Shown: positions 43,489 through 59,421 of the stretch, piece by piece
Layout: each line of letters begins with the position of its first letter
Numbering within the stretch: position 1 is the stretch's first letter
NCBI RefSeq assembly: GCF_963675165.1
Contig: NC_087383.1
Location: 6,781,139 to 6,845,138, forward strand
Length of the DNA: 64,000 nt
Reading direction: 5' to 3'
Origin: Halichondria panicea
Taxonomy: Eukaryota; Porifera; Demospongiae; Suberitida; Halichondriidae
The notes under the pieces: model-generated
The model's database searches: none
What the model saw: only the letters and a program-made list of their open reading frames with translations
Told to the model about the DNA's origin: nothing
Translations under genes and position numbers: made by a program

Positions 43489-44092
43489 TACAGGGATTTG
43501 AGGAGTTTTTGCAACTGTAATGTCGAGAGCGGAAGTATCTGTCACGTGAACCTTGGTAACAAGATTGAATTTTGGCTCATTCCAAACCAATTTTTCTCCA
43601 ATAGAGCCTATTCATTTTTGTTAAACTCGGAAAACATCGACTTACATCAGAAAGCTAAGAGCCTTTGGTAAAGGCTTTGCACCACAGCAGGTTGTCAGCT
43701 GAAGCTATCCTTGAGATTCTAATCGTTTTGTGAGCTACTACTTGCCCCAGCCTGCCTGTAAGCTGTTGAAACTCAAAGTGTATCACTAGTCTCAGTAAAA
43801 TCTCTCTTAGGCTAGCTCCAGCTGGATACATATGGAGCGCCAAAGTGGACAAAAATATCGACAATTGATAGGCCAAGATCGTGAGTACATAAATCGATCC
43901 AAAAGTGGGCGCGGTCATACATTTTTGATGATCGAAAAATATCGACAATGGATAGGCCAAGATCGTTAGTACATAATCGATCCAAAAGTGGGCGCGGTCA
44001 TACATATTTGATGATCGAAAAATATCGACGATGGATAGGCCAAGATCGTTAGTACATAATAATCGATCCAAAAGTGGGCGCGGCCATACATT
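43489..44092 (+). repeat. Left terminal inverted repeat with 83-bp subterminal units
   Basis: The first 50 bp are nearly identical to the inverted right end, including 'gtaatgtcgagagcggaagt'. Further in come the motif 'gcctttgcaccacag' and then three 83-84-bp tandem units (from about 43857, 43941 and 44024). Subterminal repeats of this kind commonly serve as transposase binding sites. The HECT gene starts 79 bp after the last unit, so the repeat may also act as its promoter. Confidence 0.85.
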
Positions 44093-44170
44093 TTTGCTGC
44101 GGTGGCGCTGGGGTGATTATTACTGGCGCATGCGTGTTAGCAAATGACCACGTGTTGTGTAGCAAGTAAT

Positions 44171-47100
44171 ATGGAGGACAAGGTCAAGCAGGCTATTAAG
44201 CTTCTCGCATCTATTGCTGAGAGCTCGGCTGAGAGCTCGGCTGAGAGCACTACACCCAGTACATCCACTTCATTGTCAACGCCTTCACAGCATGGTAAGT
44301 GTTAAGTGCAGCTAGCTAGCTTGAGTTTATGGAGTTCTCTGTAGATCTTTTGTACTCTGTACTATACTAAGCTATAAGTACGTACGTGCTAACATGGTGC
44401 TAATTATAAGGCACATCTTTATTGAGCTAGAGTGATGTGTGATTGTGTGAAAATAAGTATCACATTAATACCATATAAGCATTTTTTAAAGCGCCCCTCT
44501 AAAGATGCGCCATGAAGCCTCCAAAGTAATTTTTGAAACTCCTAATGGAGCTCCACCACGTGTGAGTAATTATTTTTTGACGGTGCATTGGTAAATAGAG
44601 GTAAAATGAGCAAGCCAATCACAGAATTCTTCCTTCCACATTTGGGCCACACAGTGCCTCTTTAACGTGTGCAACGTACGCACAGGCCTGTTGGAAGAAC
44701 AAGAAAACTGCTGCAGGTGCCATGCACATGCACAGTCCATTTGCAAAGCTGTTTTTTTACCTCCAATTAGAAGGCGCTCTTCTAAAGACTCGAAACTAAT
44801 TTTCCAACCTCATAATAGAGCCACCTTTACCAGCGTAATTATTTTAATGTGGCGCCATAAAAAGAGCTTATACGGTATGGCCATTGGACAAATAAATTTT
44901 GGTATAATCAAGAGTAGAATAAATTGAGAGTGGTGCTATATAATTAGTGCATACACAATCTTACTAATAATGATCCATTAGGTGTGAGGCATGGTGCCAG
45001 TGGGTCATGCAGCAGAGCCGTAGAAGCCCTTCGTTCCGTTAGGGAACGACTCCAAGAAGGAACGTCTTCCAGGAAACGACTCCAAGGGGGAACATCCGAG
45101 CAGAAGGCAAACTTTGCCCCATATGAGAGAAAGAGTTCAACGAAACACAAGAGTTGGACTGTGAAGTTAGTCTGTCTCAGCAGTACAGAAGCAAAAAAAG
45201 TACCCTGCAGTGTGTATGACCGAAATGTGCTTGTCAGTGCTGGGTTAGGAGAAAAAAAGACAGTAATCCCAGACATAGAATGCTCTGCAAAGGACTTCAA
45301 CGAAATCATAATCTCATCATTCTCCAAGTTGAATGGGTGTGGAGGGTTCGAGCTGCTTCGATGTGTTCCAAATACTAAAGATCTGGAATTAATTTCACCA
45401 GTAATTGCAGCATCTCCCAAGGTACTAAAGAGCGTCATTGGCAATGGCCGGGTATTCATCCGACCCATTCAAAAAAGCTTAGATGTCAATCCTATAGCAG
45501 GAAACTCTAATGAGGTAAAATACAGAACATGCACCTTCAGCTAGTTGGCTACATGTATAATTATCTATCTCTAATAGCTAAAGGAGAAGTGTTTACACTG
45601 TGACATTAAAGTGCCAGTGGTTGACCTACGTGCTCACGTTAACATTTGCAAGTGGAAGAAGTCAAGGTACTTGCCATTAATCAATTATAATTATGTATAA
45701 TTATACTGTACAGTCTGAGCCGTGGACTCGAATCAGACAGTGATTCAGACGACTTTGAAGACCCTGTTCCACCAAGAAGGCCTCCTTTGAGGTTGATACT
45801 TTACAAAAATTAATGATGATTTAACAATGTCATTAATTGCTTTACAGCTTGAAACGAGAACTTCATTGGGATAGTGATGACACTTCCCCCCCACCGAAGA
45901 AGCCAACATCAGAGCCCCTTATTTCAATTTCTTCTGAGTCTGACAATGATGTAAGTGGGAAGTGTATACATTTACTAGATTTTTGATGATATCTTTTACT
46001 ACAGGTTGAACAAACCGAGCAAGAGATGATAGACCGTGCAATTTCTCTCTCTAAGAACAACAGGTAATTTACGCAAGTTGGTTGTAGTTGAGATTAAATG
46101 AATGCCCTATTCAGTTCTGAATCAATTGCAACAATAGCAGACCTTCTGAAGTCTCTCTCCAAGTATGTGACAGGTGAAGAAGTGACTGTAACTGTGAGAC
46201 GGGAAAATGTTCTCGACGATGCTTTACGCACCGTTAGGCGTGGTTCTTTTCCAATCGACCACACTATCATTGTAAGAAGGTACTTTACATTGGCCACTAT
46301 AATTGATTGCATGTGTTACTGTAATATAGGTGGAGTTTCTTGGGGAGGCAGGTGAAGATGGGGGTGGTTTAAAACGGGAGTTTTGGTGTCTCCTGTTTAA
46401 GCAAGTGAAGTCATCTTTGTTTGAGGGGGTTGGAGATCGCCTGGTGCCAAGGCATGATGTTGTTGCACTGCAGGTTCACTATTCTTATGTATAGATTTGC
46501 CTCCATTATAATTATGCTATTCTAGAACAAGAAATTTGAACATGTTGGCAATTTGATTGCTATGGGGTTACTCCAAGGCAGCAGTGGTGTTCCATTCATT
46601 GCACCTCCGATATACGAGTACTTATGTGGCGTGAGTGCAGAATCGGTGAATGTCAGTGTGGAGGATGTTCCGGCTTACGAAGTCAAAGAATATATCTCTC
46701 AGGTGAACACCTTATCATTATTAAAAAATAATGTATAACTGCATGATTTCTTTTTAAGATCGAGGCAGCTGAATGTAATGAAAGCCTTAGACAGACTTGT
46801 CAGAGTGATATCGACACTGCACTTGAAGCTGGGTACACCAAACCCATTGCTTCCATCACCATGTCAGAGAAACCTGGGCTTGTAAAAGCACTATTGCTCC
46901 ACTTCGTTGTGTACCGAAACAAAGCAGTTCTGGACCAGTTGCGAGCTGGGCTCAACATTCTAGGGATGAGGGAGGCCATGTCCAAGTACAGTGAGATTCT
47001 AAAACCATTCTTTGTTGAAGGAATGCAACCACCTCTTTCAGCAAGTAGGTTGGCATCCCTCTTAATTTGTTTGTTACCTCCATTTTATTTTGTTCAGATA

Positions 47101-47526
47101 TGATTAGGTCTCTGATAGGTGACGTGCATTTTTCAGAATCTGGAACTTCTGAATTAGTCAAAGAGAAAGCGTCGTATATGCTTTTTTTGGATATGTTGCA
47201 TAACATACAAGGTAATAGGTAATTAGATTAAAAATCATGCTACACTAAACGGCTTCCCCCCGATTTATGCAGATGGAGGCAGCGAGTCAGGGTTGAGCCT
47301 AGGTCAGGTTCTAAACTTCTTCACTGGCAGTGACTACCCACCTGTTTTGGGCTTTGATAGTCGAAACCCTGTGAGTATTCACTTCAGCTCCACTTCAAAC
47401 TATCCCTTGGCCTCAACATGTGCATTGCAATTAACATTGCCAACCAAGTTTCATGATGATGAACTCCGGTTTAAAGAAAACATGGAGTATGGAATACTAA
47501 ACCATGGAGGTTTTGGAATGTGCTAA
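44171..47526 (+). CDS. HECT-type E3 ubiquitin ligase, 12 exons, 705 aa
   Basis: Exons: 44171-44294, 44982-45514, 45578-45666, 45714-45791, 45848-45950, 46005-46063, 46115-46271, 46330-46473, 46526-46702, 46759-47044, 47098-47211, 47273-47526. All introns are GT-AG and phases agree throughout. Residues 1-41 are Ser/Thr-rich. About 222-243 is a CxxC...H...C motif (CLHCDIK, then DLRAHVNIC), like a UBZ or small zinc finger. About 255-308 is acidic and Ser/Pro-rich. About 310-328 (EQEMIDRAISLSKNN) resembles a ubiquitin-interacting motif. Residues 382-705 are the HECT domain, starting VEFLGEAGEDGGGLKREFW. The catalytic Cys in ASTCALQLTLP is residue 671 (codon 47419-47421), and the end is GFGMC. HECT ligases accept ubiquitin on this Cys and pass it to a substrate lysine. 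The nearest relatives I recall are G2E3-like proteins. No stop or frameshift is seen, so it appears functional. Confidence 0.85.
44295..44981. other. Intron 1 of the HECT gene with MITE remnants
   Basis: The longest intron (687 bp). Its middle contains diverged matches to the MITE at 39838-40065 ('gcgccataaaaagagctta', 'cacctttaccagcgtaa'), in which the ends are recognisable. The other introns are mostly 45-65 bp. Confidence 0.6.
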
Positions 47527-47864
47527 CACTAACATTCGTGTATTTTTCAGATATAATCAGCTATCAGTGTTTTTTCGATTCACATTCATTACTACCATGA
47601 CAGTTTAATTTTGGCATCACATATGTAATCACTTTTGTGCCTCATCACTTTCGTCAAATATATGGTATATACCTTATATGATTGATTCTAATAACAAGTT
47701 AACAAAATTAATTTATTCAACATCACATGACAAAACAAATATAAACACTAAAACACTAGCTATATATAAATTAATTAATATGTAGCCAAAATTAATTTAT
47801 TCAGCATCACATGACAAAACAAATATAAACACTAAAACACTAGCTATATATAAATTAATTACAG
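47527..47864. other. Intergenic tail between convergent genes with 84-bp direct repeat
   Basis: Two direct copies of about 76 bp at 47704 and 47788 ('ttattcaacatcacatgaca' and 'acactaaaacactagctata'), spaced 84 bp. It lies between the HECT stop and the transposase stop, so both transcripts probably end here. No coding. Confidence 0.75.
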
Positions 47865-49390
47865 TCACTGACATGCTTCAACATAAGCCCGAGTGATAAT
47901 ATACAAAGATATCCCAAGATCATCACAGGTTTCAAGAGGATCAACAGCATGTGCTAGCTCAATGTGCTGCTCTCTACTTATGCAATTCCTAGTCTCAGGA
48001 ATAGTGACACGATCAAGATCATCAGACACAGTGACGGGACCTTCCCAGTCAATTCCAAAATATTCCTACAATAAATCACATTGTGATAACACTGAAGAAA
48101 ACATTAATAACTAACACTCTAACACCCAAAACAATTACATTGTACTCTTACCAATGTATCACTTGCAACACCTTGTATAGCAGCAGCATCACCTGACCCT
48201 TGTAACAATCCTTTCGTCCACAACTGGTATGGAGTCTGATTCTTCTCAGTTCTTAAACGATGATGAGCATACGATTGGCGAAATTCATCCAAATGGCTGT
48301 TGATTCGGGGGATATATATGTAATGCAAGGAAAACAGGTCTGTATTGCACAGAGGGTCCAACAATCCATCTTCTTGTAAGGAGGAGAACACCTCGTAGTA
48401 GAGTGATATGCATCCTGTGAATAGGTCCCTCCACAACCTCTCAATTCGTTGATTGTGGACACTCCGTCCTGTAATAAAACTTTTACGTCCGGGCCCACGT
48501 TCTGGATGATCAAGCATAAACTGAGACACCAGCACATTTTCTCCTCCCTTGTCACTTCGGACTCTAGAGGGTAGACCATACTCATGAACTGCACTCAAAA
48601 AACTGTCTAAAACTGTCTCTGCCCTGTTGTTTGTGGAAGCTTTCATATATACAGGGAGTCGGGAGTAGCCGTCAATGCCTCCATGTATGACAATACGCCA
48701 TTTAATGAGCCTATGATAACCGTCTATGTGCCAGAGGCTGTTTGGCATGCATACATTATATTTTCGCCGGTGGAGAACTTGCCGGAAGCGTGAAGCCACA
48801 CCAATGGGATCAATTCTCTTCAGACTTTCCCTGACTCTTGCGCGCTGGATCCGAATACCTATACTCCACAAAAAGCCACTTAGTGATCGTTCTCCAGAAT
48901 TAGGATGCGTCCTGATAAAATTTGTTGTAATATCATCAAGCTCAGAGTCGCTCAACCCTGAGAATGTTATCTCATCTTGCATTCCGTATTGAACTATTCT
49001 TCTCCTTATTGTACGAGATGAAACGCCTAACATTTTCCCAATGGCTGTAGTTGAAAAATGAGCTTTTAGCAGCAAAATAAGGCTTTCTTCACTAATTGGT
49101 ATTTGTGGTCGTCCCCTAATGTGACAACGGTGTTCATCATCAATCACCTCATTAATACACACAACTATGTTTCTCACATGTTCAACTAATATTTCTCCAC
49201 TTCCAAAAGGTAACAAATCTTCAGCACTCAGAATATCTCCAAGGACCATCTCAGCAGTACAAAGTGCATCTTCGACAACAGTTAAATCACCTTCAAGTAT
49301 CATCATGTTTGTTCTCGTAATAGTATCTTCAGCCTCAAGCAAGAAGTCAATCATCTCAGAAGCTGACATTCTAAGGAAAGAAATCGCCAT
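47865..49390 (-). CDS. DDE integrase-type transposase, 2 exons, 479 aa
   Basis: Exon 1 is 49390 down to 48152 and exon 2 is 48065 down to 47865, joined by an 86-bp GTAAG...TAG intron. Reading through instead gives a short unrelated tail, and the spliced C-terminus (EYFGIDWEGPV...) aligns with the related copy at 57.2 kb, which supports the splice. Residues 1-90 are helical, acidic and of unknown role. About 100-136 is a helix-turn-helix (STTAIGKMLGVSSRTIRRRI) for DNA binding. Residues 215-400 form the rve-type catalytic core: D223 in LWHIDGYHRLIKW, D280 in RSDKGGENV, E317 in SVHNQRIERLWRDL, with 36 residues between the last two (DDE of the IS3/retroviral integrase type). It should cut and join the transposon ends. 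The gene is intact. Confidence 0.88.
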
Positions 49391-50670
49391 GTGAGGAAAA
49401 TGGTACCTAACAGTGAGGGTGTGTCTTTATAGACTTATTTGTGCACTTGTAAAAGTAATGCCCCACCTCCCCCAGGTGGGGATTAGTTGGGGATTAGACT
49501 TGAAGTTGCTCCCCTACCTCAGAGGAGGTCTGACATGCACGAATCACTACAAGTTCAGTACATTGATATCATTGCGGTCACGTGATAATGTCCAGGCCAA
49601 ATGCACTGAACTTGTAATGCACTGAACTTGTAGTGATTCGTGCACGCATGTCGGACCTCCTCTGTCCCTACCTAGGGGACTTAGACAGATCACCTGATGC
49701 ATGCATTGGGTCAAAAGATCACATGCCATACTCATCCTTCCAACACATGCTGAGTACAGTGAGAGCAGTTTATTAATCCTAAGCAATCTCTGCCTTTTTG
49801 CTTTATAAGAGTATAGCTGTCAATATTTATATAGTGATTCTGTATTTGTTATCTTCTCGCTATACGTAGTGATAGGTCTATTCCCCACATAACCCCCATG
49901 TTGTACTAGGGGGATTAAACCAAATAACATGCCCAAAGGTAGGGGTATTATATCATGTGATTGGTCTAATCCCCACCCCCGGTAGGGGAGGGGGAATTAG
50001 ATTGACAAGTTCATTAGCCTTCATTACATTGTAAAGCATTACAAAGTTTAATATTCTAGGTAGGTATATGCATACAATAGCTCACGTCCAGTTTGGGGAG
50101 GGACGTCCTTTCCCCACAATATAAATACATACGCATACACGTCATTCTGTTAGGCTACCTATGACTTTGAGAAGATCCTCAACCTTACACCATGACTCTT
50201 TTATACTTACAAGAACAAACGAACAAAGTAGAAAACGGTTGTGTTAGCCTACTAAACTAAAGATTAATAAAACAGTACCAAATAATTATAGTACCTTAAT
50301 ACTCTATGCCCTCCCTCAATCGAATTAATCAGCTTGGCTCACTTATCATGCTCTTGATCTTGGCAAAGAAAATAGCTGCTATTATTGTAGGTGAGAACTA
50401 GAGTAGAGACCACGCCCTTTACATAGCATAGTCTCATAGAAAGGGCGTGGTCTTCAGTAGAAAGTGCTGATTTTACTAGGCCTTGAATCGAGGCTAGGCT
50501 GACACGTTCTTAGCCTCGAGACCACGCCGATTGAAATAAGACGTGGTCTCGAGGCTAACACCTTCTTGAATATCAAACACAATGTCTACGATTGAGAGGT
50601 CGATAATAGACTAAATCATCACACAGGTTGCATGTAGATCGAATATCAATTGGCGCGGCATTATTAAACT
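49391..50670. other. Transposon interior upstream of the transposase
   Basis: Contains a palindromic insert about 49508-49665 ('gcacgaatcactacaagttc' and its mirror) and two versions of a short 'gggtgggg attag' motif near 49470-49500 and 49960-50000. About 50510-50545 ('agaccacgccgattgaaat') resembles 43447-43466, just outside the left end. No gene. The transposase promoter must be within it. Confidence 0.5.
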
Positions 50671-51102
50671 ATCAAAAATGTATGGGCGGCCCACTTTTGG
50701 ATCGATTATGTACTAACGATCTTGGCCTATCCATTGTTGATATTTTTCGATCATCAAAAATGTATGACCGCGCCCACTTTTGGATCGATTATGTACTCAC
50801 GATCTTGGCCTATCAATCGTCGATATTTTTGTCCACTTTGGCGCTCCATAGATACACAGTTTGTATGACAGACTAATAGTAGTAGCTCACGATTGGGCTC
50901 AAGGATAGCTTTAGCTGTGGTGCAAAGGCTTGCATATGCAGAGCAAAGCCTCCTATAGGTCGATTTTTCCCCAAAATAAACAGGCCTAAAGGATTTATTG
51001 GACAAAAATTGGTTTGTAATGAGCCATAATTACGTAACTGTTCACGTGACAAGTACTTCCGCTCTCGACATTACAGTTGCAAGAACTCCTCAAATCCCTG
51101 TA
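50671..51102 (-). repeat. Right terminal inverted repeat with two 83-bp units
   Basis: Inverted relative to 43489-44092. It contains two subterminal units (about 50688-50850), then 'gtccactttggcgctccata', 'ctgtggtgcaaaggct' and the end 'cctcaaatccctgta'. It is shorter than the left repeat by one unit and by internal gaps. Confidence 0.85.
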
Positions 51103-52634: not shown

Positions 52635-54979
52635 ATGGCTGAGCAGGATGAATTGTTTGGAGCATGGAGTCAATACTTTATTGATGTCAGCAGATTCCTA
52701 GAGAACACAGAACATCATCGTGGAATAGCGAATCGAGAATTTTGTGACTATGTTTTGCCAAGACTAGAAGTTTGTCTGAGTACTTGCATGCAACTATCTG
52801 ATCAAATGCTGCAAGGGGGTTCTGAAGTTGGAGAAGAAGATGAGCTAGTAATTAATGAGTTTCAATCGAATTTGGCTCATCTACTAGAGTGCCTGAGAAG
52901 TGTACACAGACAGTGGGTGCAATATGAAGAGATGTTAGAAACCAGCAAATTCCAGTATCAAGCTGCTAGAAGAATCTTTGGAAGAGGAAGATCTAAGTTT
53001 GAAATTGAAAAGGAACAACTAGTGTACCTATCATCACTAAATTTTAGCTGGACTGAAATTGCGGCCCTGCATGCTTGGTGTGTCTTGTATGACCATATAT
53101 AGGTAAGTTTTTGACTGATAAACATAAGTAATCTTGTGTATACAGAAGACGAGTTGAGTTTGAATTGCTGGATGACTCTGCAACAACTTTATCAGATCAT
53201 GAGCTCAACAGGATTGTGAAGGAAATCCATTCAGAATCCCCGACGTTAGGAGTCATTATGGTATGTGGAAGGCTGAGAAGAATGGGATATAGTGTGTCAA
53301 GGGATAGTTCTCTAAGGTCATCTGACCCATTAAGTGCAGCTTCAAGATTGATGGGTGGTCTTAGTCGACGACAGCCTTACTCAGTTGCTGGCCCAAACCT
53401 CTGGCATATTGGTGGGTATAATTATTATTTGTACAAGTTTTTGTAAATGCATATTGATAACTGGAACCATACATGTAGATATAATTATAGGAAAGAGGGA
53501 TTGATCTCTTGTCCCCTGCAATAACTTTAAGGCTTTACAGGCCTTCTTTAAGTTCCCAAAAGCTTGATTTCCGTGCCCCACGTATCGTGTGGAAATAATC
53601 AAAAAATATTCTTGATTGTTGGAAAATAGCTAAAGGTATCCATGTAAAGCAACCCTCCAAATATGCGACACCCTCCATAATATGCAATTTTAATTGTAAC
53701 CTCTAAAAATACGTGTTATTTAGTCAACAGGGTGTCATTTACAGGACTTTGAAGTAGAGAGTGGAAATAAGGGGGGTCTAAAAGTCACCATTATTTCAAC
53801 ACCCTGTTTAATAATTAATAACATCGCCGGCCATGCAGAGACATGACTGGTGTTCATTCGAAGGTCTATATAGGGTGAATTCTAGTGGGTTTTGAGATTG
53901 CCTTTGCATAATATATATACTCAGTCATACAACTATAGTACCTGAATGCAGATGTTTAGGGGGGGAGGGGGAGGAAGTCCATTCATGGATCTTATTTTCA
54001 TAGTTTCTGCTTCCACTGCAGGTAAAGGTAGTCAAGGTCGCTGGGTAAAATATTCGTGGTCCGGCTATATACTGTAGCAACTGCTGTGTTGACAATATTT
54101 TTGTATGTCACATTCTAAATAGAGGTCAAACTATAGCCTCTAGAGAAACAATGATCAAATATGCAACACCAGCAAGACTTCAACATAATTTTTCAACCTC
54201 CAAAATTAGGCTTTAAAGTGTCACCTTAGATCGAATAAATATATTATACGGTATCATCCTTTTGATATTCGTCAAAATATTAATTATGCTTGATCAGAGG
54301 CCGCTCTTGTATAAAGCCCACACTCAAATAGTAGCCTCTAAAATTAATCCCCATCTTCAGTGCGATAAAAGCTGCTCTCAAATAGTAGCCTCAATAAACT
54401 TTAACCGTAATCACCTCTGAGTCATATTGATACTGCAGTGGTATCTATACAGTAGCAGCTTGTTAGTGCAGACTTTCACATGGCAGACTTTGAGTTTGTG
54501 CAGGTGAAAAGAACTTACCTGCTAAACCACTTCCTGTTTGCCTTCAGAAAGGAACTGGTATGCTACTTATCAAAGAGTTGTCCCAGCGTAGAACTAACCA
54601 CAAATTACATTATGCGTGGATGGATGCCAAACATTTGGTCACGACAAGCAGCCATAGATGTGTTTGTAATTGAGTCTGCATGGTAACATTAATAAATAAG
54701 CGCGAGTTGTGACTTGTGCATTCTTATCAAAGAAGAGTTATTCCGTGCGTGAGATTCTTTACGCACGGTTAAAAGTAGCCCTTTCTAAAGGCAAAAAAGG
54801 AAGCGGTCTCATTTTACTGGAGCGTTAGTAGACGTAATGAACACCTTTCTGGTCTCTCGAATTCTAATTGCTAGCAAAATATCGTATATAGCTGCAGCCT
54901 CTGATCAAGTAGTACGAGTAACAAGCAATGGCAAGGCTTCTAATTGGCCCTTGCCTGTGTTTGTTATGAGTGTTCTTAA

Positions 54980-56590: not shown

Positions 56591-57422
56591 TTGACTAATT
56601 TCATCACATTAAAATTAATTATGGTTGAATTATCTTAATTGTTTCAGATTCACATCATAAGCTTATTAGATGGAGAATCGTCACTCATGGCTGCATTGAC
56701 AGCTACAGTAGGCTGGTGACTTTCTTGAAGTGTTGTGGCAATAATAAATCGCCAACAGTGTACAAATTATTTTTGTGTGCAGTTCAAAAGCATCAGCTGC
56801 CATCTCGTATATAAGAATGGACCAAGGTTGGGAAAATGTATTGGTCGCACGTCACATGTTAGAAAAAAGAGGACATGATAGGAGAAGTGTGATTGTAGGA
56901 GCCTCGGTCCATAATCAATGCATAGAGCGACTATATGGAGGGACATGCACCGCTGTGACTATTCTCTTTTACAAGCTGTTTTACTTTATGGAACAAGTGG
57001 ATCTATTAGACTGTTTGAATGAGACGCATCTGTATTCCCTTCATTATAATGACATTGTGTTCATTCCACGTATTAATCAGGCACTTGCACTGTTCATTGG
57101 TGGATGGAACCATCACTCAATCCGAACTGCACACCGTAAGTCTGCACACCAGTTGTTTACAACAGGGGCACTACTTTTGCAGCACTCCGGACTCGCAGCT
57201 TTGGATTTTTTTGAGAATGTGGAGGAAGAATATGGAATTGATATGGAAGGCCCCATCCCGTCTCAGGGACGTTCTATAGTTGTGCCTGAGGTGCCAATAA
57301 GGCTAAGTTCAGAGAATTTTGCTCCCCTACAGCAAGCTGTTAATCCGTTAGCACCTTCTGATGAGTTTGGCATTGATTTGTATGAACAAGTTTTGCAGTT
57401 TATGTCAACGATTACGGTATAA

Positions 57423-59421
57423 AATATGACCATGATGACTCTCATAATTTGATGTTATTCTTACATAATTATTATTTTGATGCATGCCATTGTGATGCTC
57501 AGTAAACAAAGCTCATAATTCAGTATCAACATGAAAAATGATTAATGAGAGTATGTGCATGCAGTACAATAGCTATAAGCCAAAACAATACTACCTATAT
57601 AATTAAAGGGAGTGATTGTTAGAATTGACGATAATCATATAATTATTATGAACATCCATGAAGGTGATTGATTGAAATGAAGGATGACACTGAGAGTAAG
57701 CTAGCTACACAGCAAAAACACAATTATGTTATATGGGATGCATCATCGTATTTTAGTGTTAAAATGACAGAAATTTATGTCATTTCTACATTAAAATAAT
57801 TTCAAATGATGCATTAAATTTTTATTTGAGATGTTTTATGTTATTATAACATAATTATCTGTTTTTACTGTGTATATAGCCAAAACAATTATGACGTGAT
57901 TAGCACAAATAATTAAACTTAAGAAGTTCAAGGTCCATTCAGGGAATAGTAACATAATGATAATGACGATACTTAATTAAGAAGTTCATGGTCCATTCAG
58001 AAAGAAGTTACAAACAGTTCATTACCCAACAAAGGTCATTGTCGTTGAGGATTGCCATCCACTTTCCGTGAAATTTGCTATAATTGGCATACGAGATTGG
58101 TAGCTTTAGCAAAGCATCACATGTGTTGTGCGCACAGGGCCTCCTGGCCCACTCAGACGATTGAATTGTACGATGATACTGCTGACAGACAATACACTGC
58201 TCCCAGTTGTGAAGTGAAGAAATCGCTGAAGCAGATTAGTCGACATATTGCCAATCAATATCTACAAGATAGCCACCAACACGCTCCTCAGCAGGATTCA
58301 CCAACACGGGCAGTTTGATAATGCCTAAAACTTTCTTTGGTGAGACTGTATAAGCATCCTATAAATGGAGCACATGCATGCACACCTTCAACAGATTGCA
58401 CTGATAATAGGCACTTTTATAACATTACTTTATGAGCTAGAATAATAGGGAGGTTTTGAAATACAGGTCAATATACGAGTCATAATTATAGTATAAACAT
58501 ATTTTGTAGGCCCGGAAGTACTGCATGGCGGGTAATTATCTCCTATATATTGTAGAATTAATAGATAGAGGTCATATGCATAAATTATGGCCATTATTAG
58601 TTTGTGTTACTTGTGCAACGACATGGGGCTTATAATTATGCCGTGTTTTGGAGGCAATTAATATAGGCTGTTAACTTGAGCATAAAAGAATAACTAGCAT
58701 GCATATAAATATATACTATAAGTACAGTTCAATATACATGTACCAAAAATGAATTTTTTACGAGCATCGTATATAGTGGGTATACATAAACTTCGCAGGA
58801 TGACTGTTTAATAGAAAGGTTTTCGCAGATTTAATTTTCGCGGAATAGAGCAGCCTTTCTGCAGCATACATGCATGCATGCGTTAATCTTGCATATAAAT
58901 GTTCGCGGTACATGCTTATATAATCAGTGAATTTAATCAGTTTATTAAATAATCAATTCTCAATAATAACGCAAAAACTATAGTACTGGTAAGTGTACCC
59001 GATATCCTTGCATACTGCATGCTAGACGGGGAAAATATCTTTCAATGAAGTAAAACATGTAGTAATATCATGCATGTTACAACAATTAATAACAATTAAC
59101 ACACCACCAGGGATAGGTGTACAAGTGTATAAATTATTACAAGTATAATAGTGTAAAGATAAAAATTAATAGTTTAGTATTCGTGAGGAATAGTAAGTCC
59201 AACTTATAGTCAATGGCAGCAGATAGGGTTAATGATCATTGATGTTTCTTCCTGCGTGTTAAATGAGATGCGGCCATTACAATCGTGTGCATGTATAGAT
59301 TATAGACTCATGCATAAAAAAACTGTTTTGCATGCAATGTATGCGTGTGCATGTTCAAGACATGGCAAGGTACATTCCAGATTTAATCTACATCTGAATC
59401 GTCGTAGCTTTATATTATAGC
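57423..59421. other. Intergenic, with one small palindromic element and an unidentified frame
   Basis: 57737-57812 is a hairpin of about 76 bp with 'atgcatcat' ends, MITE-like. The 88-codon frame at 58052-58318 (motif KKSLKQISRHIANQYLQDS) is coding-like in base composition but has no recognised family and no clear splice context. The rest is AT-rich. Confidence 0.4.

Follow-up and report, generated by a model that had tools for sequence, protein, structure and literature searches.

A HECT ubiquitin ligase gene recurs tail to tail with a DDE integrase gene in IS3EU/GingerRoot-like transposons of the sponge Halichondria panicea

Introduction

The closest described relatives of the element reported here are the IS3EU/GingerRoot and Ginger1 transposons. 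The element lies at positions 43831 to 50850 of a 64-kb stretch of contig C7 of the sponge Halichondria panicea (the window), and it carries a DDE integrase gene that faces, tail to tail, a gene for a predicted HECT ubiquitin ligase. According to PMC10045372, the IS3EU and GingerRoot groups belong to a single lineage, whose elements have TA..TA ends and a target site duplication (TSD) of usually 6 bp. By the definition given in PMC10045372 and PMC12730594, the first D of the transposase lies 100-300 residues from the N-terminus and an HHCC zinc finger is absent. Fungal IS3EU elements bear TET/JBP and alpha-kinase genes, the alpha-kinase gene being opposite in orientation to the transposase gene, and escape from silencing has been proposed as the role of these extra genes (PMC12730594). 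Ginger1 transposases bear OTU or Ulp1 domains; a part for the ubiquitin pathway in transposition was suggested by the authors who described them (PMC2836005).

Here we describe a two-gene transposon in which a DDE integrase gene is accompanied by a tail-to-tail gene for a multidomain HECT ligase under selection, and sequence comparison indicates that this pair is very probably usual equipment of such elements in this sponge. Transposons with deubiquitinase-like domains are known; a separate HECT ligase gene in an element of the IS3EU/GingerRoot type appears to be new. The open literature searched contained no HECT-bearing transposon and no paper that treats IS3EU and HECT together; Repbase and subscription papers were outside this scope, and a prior description is possible. 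The main text of PMC4255032 does not mention HECT.

Results

Recurrence of the integrase-HECT pair

An earlier note on this DNA, made from the sequence alone, had raised the question whether HECT and integrase genes recur together between the same TACAGGG ends. The pair was found to recur as a unit, but the ends of that unit are TATGGAGCGCC, not TACAGGG. The window HECT protein was used to search the whole genome (131.5 Mb) and gave 34 loci, 30 of which had a convergent integrase relative within 8 kb (63 of 101 rows were used, the rest being further exons of the seven window-family copies). The divergent HECT protein of locus L054 also gave 34 loci (all 40 rows used), which comprised 23 convergent pairs, 5 tandem pairs and 6 loci without an integrase. 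Since both queries come from these transposons, the loci found are their relatives, not all HECT genes of the genome. With both queries, 53 of the 68 HECT loci were convergent with an integrase relative within 8 kb. When 83 other integrase loci (the first 83 of 150 rows) were used as a control, none of the 68 HECT loci was paired, and the crude chance expectation of pairing was about 0.25% per HECT locus. Seen from the integrase side, a convergent HECT gene lay within 8 kb at 53 of 83 loci. For this count, 83 of 95 rows were entered (of the rows omitted, 7 were second exons and 5 were fragments of loci already counted), giving 82 loci; the 83-locus set is composed of these 82, one omitted piece and the second integrase of the window. 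The earlier note had named two findings that would contradict it, a single-copy host HECT gene with other integrase copies always lacking it, and inverted repeats that never recur as a unit. Neither was observed: the 53 convergent loci run the other way, the 30 of 34 paired loci obtained with the window query rule out a single-copy host gene, and the pair recurs between the TATGGAGCGCC ends.

A HECT profile was also run over the loci that surround the best integrase matches (L009-L038, among them that of the window). A match on the opposite strand within 1.5 kb was present at 25 of the 30 loci, a count that leaves out L032 (E 0.0096), and at none of 8 control loci around other integrases. Locus L031 had a further HECT match on the integrase's own strand. 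The profile was built from families among the loci scanned, and its L047 row included a short misread stretch of a neighbouring Gypsy frame, from which one spurious weak match in L047 arose.

The pair was present in six families, whose integrases were 38-57% identical and whose HECT C-lobes were 19-48% identical. In L045, L046, and L048, inverted repeats with TATGGAACGCC ends enclosed both genes. The TSD was TACATC in L045 and CTTTTT in L046, and it was imperfect in L048; the HECT gene of L046 was truncated and contained a stop. The L054 element, with an integrase 41% identical, had TATGGAAGGG ends at 2350/9509, a TSD of CCCGGC, and a convergent, very divergent HECT open reading frame (ORF) with a Pfam HECT match (E 2.2e-6) and its own finger.

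Other arrangements were also observed. Mirror-image doublets (integrase +, HECT -, HECT +, integrase -), 7 to 27 kb across, were located at G000:C1:4126636-4153785, C1:8835013-8843348, C8:780850-796923, C9:2874299-2881456, C13:4273617-4281244, and C16:4429644-4446693; these are perhaps elements with gene-bearing inverted arms. In a non-convergent lineage (G000:C4:2654323, C4:3499346, C15:5971499, and C7:4194514), the integrase and the HECT match shared a strand, the HECT match lying about 2.7 kb downstream.

The HECT ligase gene and its product

The HECT gene (44171..47526, + strand), defined by gene model and Pfam, has 12 exons and encodes 705 amino acids (aa). Exons 1-6 lie at 44171-44294, 44982-45514, 45578-45666, 45714-45791, 45848-45950, and 46005-46063, and exons 7-12 at 46115-46271, 46330-46473, 46526-46702, 46759-47044, 47098-47211, and 47273-47526; all 11 introns are GT-AG, by choice during model building. 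A spliced aligner recovered these exons except for two junctions, which it placed at other sites, and there the NCBI protein P0001 (LOC135336110, H. panicea, 467 aa) sided with the 12-exon version. P0001 matched the window HECT protein at 100% (rounded) over 65% of its length, covering exons 1-8 and the beginning of exon 9; its start is an in-frame ATG at 44144, nine residues upstream of the 705-aa model. The integrase gene (47865..49390, - strand) has two exons (49390-48152 and 48065-47865, stop included), with the intron chosen to be GT-AG, and encodes 479 aa. The two spliced, convergent genes without stops described in the earlier note were thereby rebuilt.

The HECT domain (46115..47523, + strand, like all features of this gene) was recognised by Pfam PF00632 at residues 429-704 (E 5.7e-10; 39.8 bits against a curated cut-off of 23.9). 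Its N-lobe part matched solved HECT domains and showed the expected fold, the nearest solved sequence being HUWE1 (E 2.5e-8). The catalytic Cys671 that the earlier note had pointed out (codon TGT, 47419..47421) was present in an STC motif, and an STC or NTC active-site motif was found in all six families compared. A Phe four residues from the end matters in HECT enzymes. In the window protein this is Phe702 (codon 47512..47514); the residue was present at this position in three of the six families, was shifted inward by one residue in a fourth, and was lacking in the other two. By its domain, N-lobe fold and C-lobe Cys, the window protein is a complete-looking HECT ubiquitin ligase with predicted E3 activity.

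Upstream of the HECT domain, a conserved N-terminal domain (about residues 95-219) is encoded within one exon (45140..45514). In the structural model of P0001 it formed a confident alpha/beta unit at roughly residues 107-218, with a pLDDT near 88. Pfam gave no named match for this domain, and in a fold search with the P0001 model the lists were filled by the HECT part and provided no fold name for it. A zinc finger, C224-x2-C227-x11-H239-x3-C243 (45590..45649), follows; its spacing resembles the pattern of the UBZ4 ubiquitin-binding finger, and it had no Pfam match. The C-x2-C-x11-H-x3-C pattern occurred 9 times in the 589,042 codons of the collected loci, each time in one of these HECT genes, and the finger spanned four families (the region was read in those four of the six). 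The acidic A-x3-S motif EQTEQEMIDRAISLSKNN (46008..46063), also without a Pfam match, presumably resembles the UIM consensus. This motif was also visible in L045, P0122, and P0123, and the finger was also present in P0122; both motifs had been listed in the earlier note. The HECT proteins of three families aligned over nearly their full length, at 43% and 30% identity to the window protein (two of the three sequences were hand-joined from exons), and the N-terminal domain, the finger region and the HECT domain with its Cys were kept. Protein P0123 (source name Em0018g519a), which by its gene naming we take to be from the freshwater sponge Ephydatia muelleri, shared two parts, the N-terminal domain (48% over 170 aa) and a segment that extends into the HECT N-lobe (40% over 200 aa).

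The N-terminal domain was also seen behind a SAM domain (P0124) and behind a weakly DUF6589-like stretch (P0123).

Cellular HECT ligases of the HUWE1, NEDD4, and UBE3A type have the same N-lobe fold and C-lobe Cys, but their typical additional modules are WW, C2, and UBA, whereas the sponge protein has the unnamed N-terminal domain, the C2HC finger and the UIM-like motif.

Constraint on the two genes

Nonsynonymous (dN) and synonymous (dS) divergence was compared between families; the copies of the window family are too alike for this measurement, and substitution counts among them were set aside since L039, L043, and L044 were misaligned in the global alignment. HECT exon 2 had a dN of 0.51-0.84 with saturated dS, and the last HECT exon a dN of 0.55-0.81 with dS saturated or nearly so, except in two of six pairs. 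For the integrase, dN was 0.48-0.61 and dS was saturated. With dN well below saturated dS, both proteins are, by this measure, maintained, the HECT protein somewhat less strictly, in line with the selection on both genes that the earlier note had assumed.

These data bear on whether the HECT gene was captured from the host and now travels as a passenger that plays no part in transposition. Capture of genes by transposons is common, and 9 of the 68 HECT loci had no integrase nearby. The HECT and integrase similarities of the six families were also not significantly correlated (rho 0.29, a value reached in 145 of 720 permutations); swaps of HECT genes between families, or unequal rates of evolution, may lie behind this. 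However, the pair persists in families as far apart as given above, and a useless passenger should decay between families; the retention of the Cys and the excess of dS over dN therefore count against a passenger, which we consider improbable.

The integrase

The core of the integrase corresponded to Pfam rva_4 (E 1.9e-83); rve fell just short of its cut-off, and HTH domains matched weakly. At E up to 1, Pfam gave no match to a zinc finger, OTU, or Ulp1 domain, and the protein had no match among solved structures at the same limit. The triad D223/D280/E317 assigned in the earlier note was kept in 120, 118, and 120, respectively, of the best 120 of 2729 homologues. No relatives were found in viral contigs scanned with the integrase.

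Ends of the mobile unit

The element spans 7020 bp, from TATGGAGCGCC to GGCGCTCCATA, limits that are common to its other copies. Its left terminal inverted repeat (about 180 bp; 43831..44012, + strand) was 96% identical to the right one (50671..50850, - strand), with query positions 1-182 matching the right end. Subterminal tandem repeats of 83 bp, 2.9 copies at 43851..44096 (+ strand) and 1.9 copies at 50671..50830 (- strand), are possible transposase binding sites. The TSD, GATACA, flanks the element at 43825..43830 and 50851..50856 (both + strand), as established by comparison with other copies and with element-free sites. Apart from the exons of the two genes (HECT on the + strand, integrase on the - strand), the longest ORF listed in the unit has 174 aa and runs antisense to HECT exon 2. 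The gap between the two convergent genes contains an 84-bp tandem duplication (98%) at window positions 47703-47861.

The earlier note had stated that inverted repeats enclose exactly two genes. The unit does contain only these two, but its ends are 43831/50850 rather than 43489/51102. If the mobile unit were the larger composite bounded by TACAGGG, the inverted repeats present at 43489 and 51102 would be its ends. However, when 43489..51102 was compared by Blast with the six other copies, only 43831-50850 or part of it proved to be common to them and the window. The TACAGGG inverted repeats belong to another repeat, TACAGGG...CCCTGTA, of about 589 bp, which occurs at at least about 40 genomic places, the window included, and is apparently non-autonomous; its left part (43489..43824, + strand) and right part (50857..51102, + strand) lie outside the element. 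One copy of it (L050; 98.3% over 589 bp) continued through the junction uninterrupted by the element, and two others (L051 and L052) were element-free across the same junction (98.4% over 431 bp and 90.1% over 548 bp). One GATACA remained at each of these three sites (3/3 TACAGGG copies read). Because the TACAGGG repeat occurs elsewhere without the element, the element jumped into an older repeat, and the earlier note had read this nested arrangement as a single structure. The shared limits and the element-free copies thus rule out 43489-51102 as the element, and we give the composite practically no chance.

Copies and recent movement

Seven near-identical copies, the window's included, were found, and all seven carry both genes. 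The left terminal repeat was located at these copies and at one diverged repeat elsewhere in the genome; both terminal repeats were present in six of the seven, L039 being without its right end. The target duplications of six copies were GATACA, GAATAA, ATTACT, CATACT(A), AGTCAG, and ATCCTT, exactly 6 bp in five of the six testable copies and 7 bp or offset in one. Several copies had small coding indels, among them 14 gap positions in HECT exon 2 (L041), one in exon 5 (L040), 12 in exon 1 (both L043 and L044) and, for L044, a further 13 in the integrase. Copies L043 and L044 also carry an insert of about 6.4 kb with a Mutator-like transposase recognised by eye; the insert is present at two sites (L055 and L056, with L044 and L043). 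They were 99.7% identical over 7.0 kb around this insert and each composite had its own 6-bp duplication; therefore the enlarged element has moved since the insert was acquired. Judged from these comparisons, the window element is a young, recently mobile copy.

The window also contains a second, decayed integrase of the same superfamily (56647..57383, + strand; a further fragment at 53099-53422) and, convergent with it, a decayed HECT C-lobe relic (58011..58373, - strand).

Classification

By ends, TSD length and domain, the element matches IS3EU/GingerRoot. TA..TA termini (TAYGG..CCRTA) were present in the window family, L045, L046, L048, and L054, and a 6-bp TSD in the window family, L045, L046, and L054; in the transposase, the first D is residue 223, Pfam detected no zinc finger, and the triad is conserved. 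The sponge element thus resembles this lineage in its ends, its 6-bp TSD and its DDE integrase-type transposase, and fungal members also bear extra genes; it differs in that its second gene encodes a HECT ubiquitin ligase.

Ginger1 elements are marked by an H2C2 zinc finger, a GPY/F motif and a C-terminal OTU or Ulp1 domain, and the Ginger TSD is 4 bp, in contrast to 6 bp in the sponge element. The two share an integrase-like transposase combined with an activity of the ubiquitin/SUMO system (PMC2836005). However, in Ginger1 the domain forms part of the transposase itself and would take ubiquitin or SUMO off, whereas the sponge activity is encoded by a separate gene and would add ubiquitin.

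Polinton/Maverick elements are large and carry a B-family polymerase and virion genes. Like them, the sponge element has an integrase, inverted repeats and a 6-bp TSD, but at 7020 bp and with two genes it contained no ORF of polymerase or capsid size, by inspection of its ORFs and without a library search aimed at polymerase or virion genes.

Discussion

The pair recurs in six families, the Cys is kept in all six and the finger spans four, and the ligase is therefore very probably an old, selected component of these transposons. Since the pair recurs across old branches of the transposon group, the tagging enzyme is suggested to help the transposon. That the ligase acts in the life cycle of the element, as the earlier note had proposed, is well supported, indirectly, by the recurrence of the pair between the same ends and by the constraint on both proteins.

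Several observations weigh against this account. Thirty of the 83 integrase loci had no convergent HECT gene within 8 kb, and L053 had no HECT in 10 kb. The remaining HECT loci of the 68 were tandem (5), divergent (1) or without an integrase nearby (9), and at 2 of the 30 convergent loci found with the window query a same-strand integrase was nearer. Loci and copies that belong to the same family do not count as independent cases. At 39.8 bits, the Pfam HECT match is modest, and the fourth-from-last Phe is found in only half of the six families. The HECT protein evolves faster than the integrase, the two unsaturated last-exon pairs (dN 0.71/dS 2.15 and 0.60/1.38) indicate milder constraint, and the absence of a significant HECT/integrase correlation belongs here as well. 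The placement in IS3EU/GingerRoot was made without a tree including Repbase sequences.

In the mechanism that we propose, the transposase, which probably binds the 83-bp subterminal repeats, would cut and join at the TATGGAG ends, and the same cell would also produce the ligase. Through its ubiquitin-reader-like modules the ligase could be drawn to chromatin or DNA breaks marked with ubiquitin, and there it may ubiquitinate a protein so that transposition succeeds or is tolerated. The ligase would then be a working enzyme, retained for its help. Because the reader-like modules point to ubiquitin-marked chromatin or break sites, we favour a role in donor-gap repair or in disassembly of the transposition complex; this ranks first among the roles considered, as a tentative choice.

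Ranked second, and a less likely role, is that of an anti-silencing weapon, in which the ligase would mark a host silencing protein (of the piRNA, methylation or histone pathway) for destruction. The analogy is with the TET/JBP and alpha-kinase genes of fungal IS3EU elements and their proposed silencing escape, the transposon-encoded TET/JBP enzymes being thought to remove methylation in fungi (PMC12730594). However, the copy number, seven, is low. Low copy number is consistent with a third role, which we regard as rather unlikely, that the ligase limits or recycles its own transposase, through dosage or through removal from cleaved ends. Both proteins do come from one element, but selection among copies would not clearly favour an enzyme that limits its own element.

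A broader reading, which we put forward with almost the same reserve as the preferred role in repair or disassembly, is that IS3EU/GingerRoot transposition in animals has an obligatory second component of ancestral origin, a HECT ligase supplied by the transposon and fitted with ubiquitin-reading modules, which finishes or licenses the process. Chemically, it would do the reverse of what the deubiquitinase-like domains in Ginger1 do.

Should movement depend on the ligase, this would be a eukaryotic cut-and-paste transposon equipped with a ubiquitin-writing enzyme of its own, and a single point mutant (Cys671) could test the suspected connection of transposition with the ubiquitin system. If the proposed account is true, some of the scattered HECT genes of sponge genomes would be transposon genes, not host genes.

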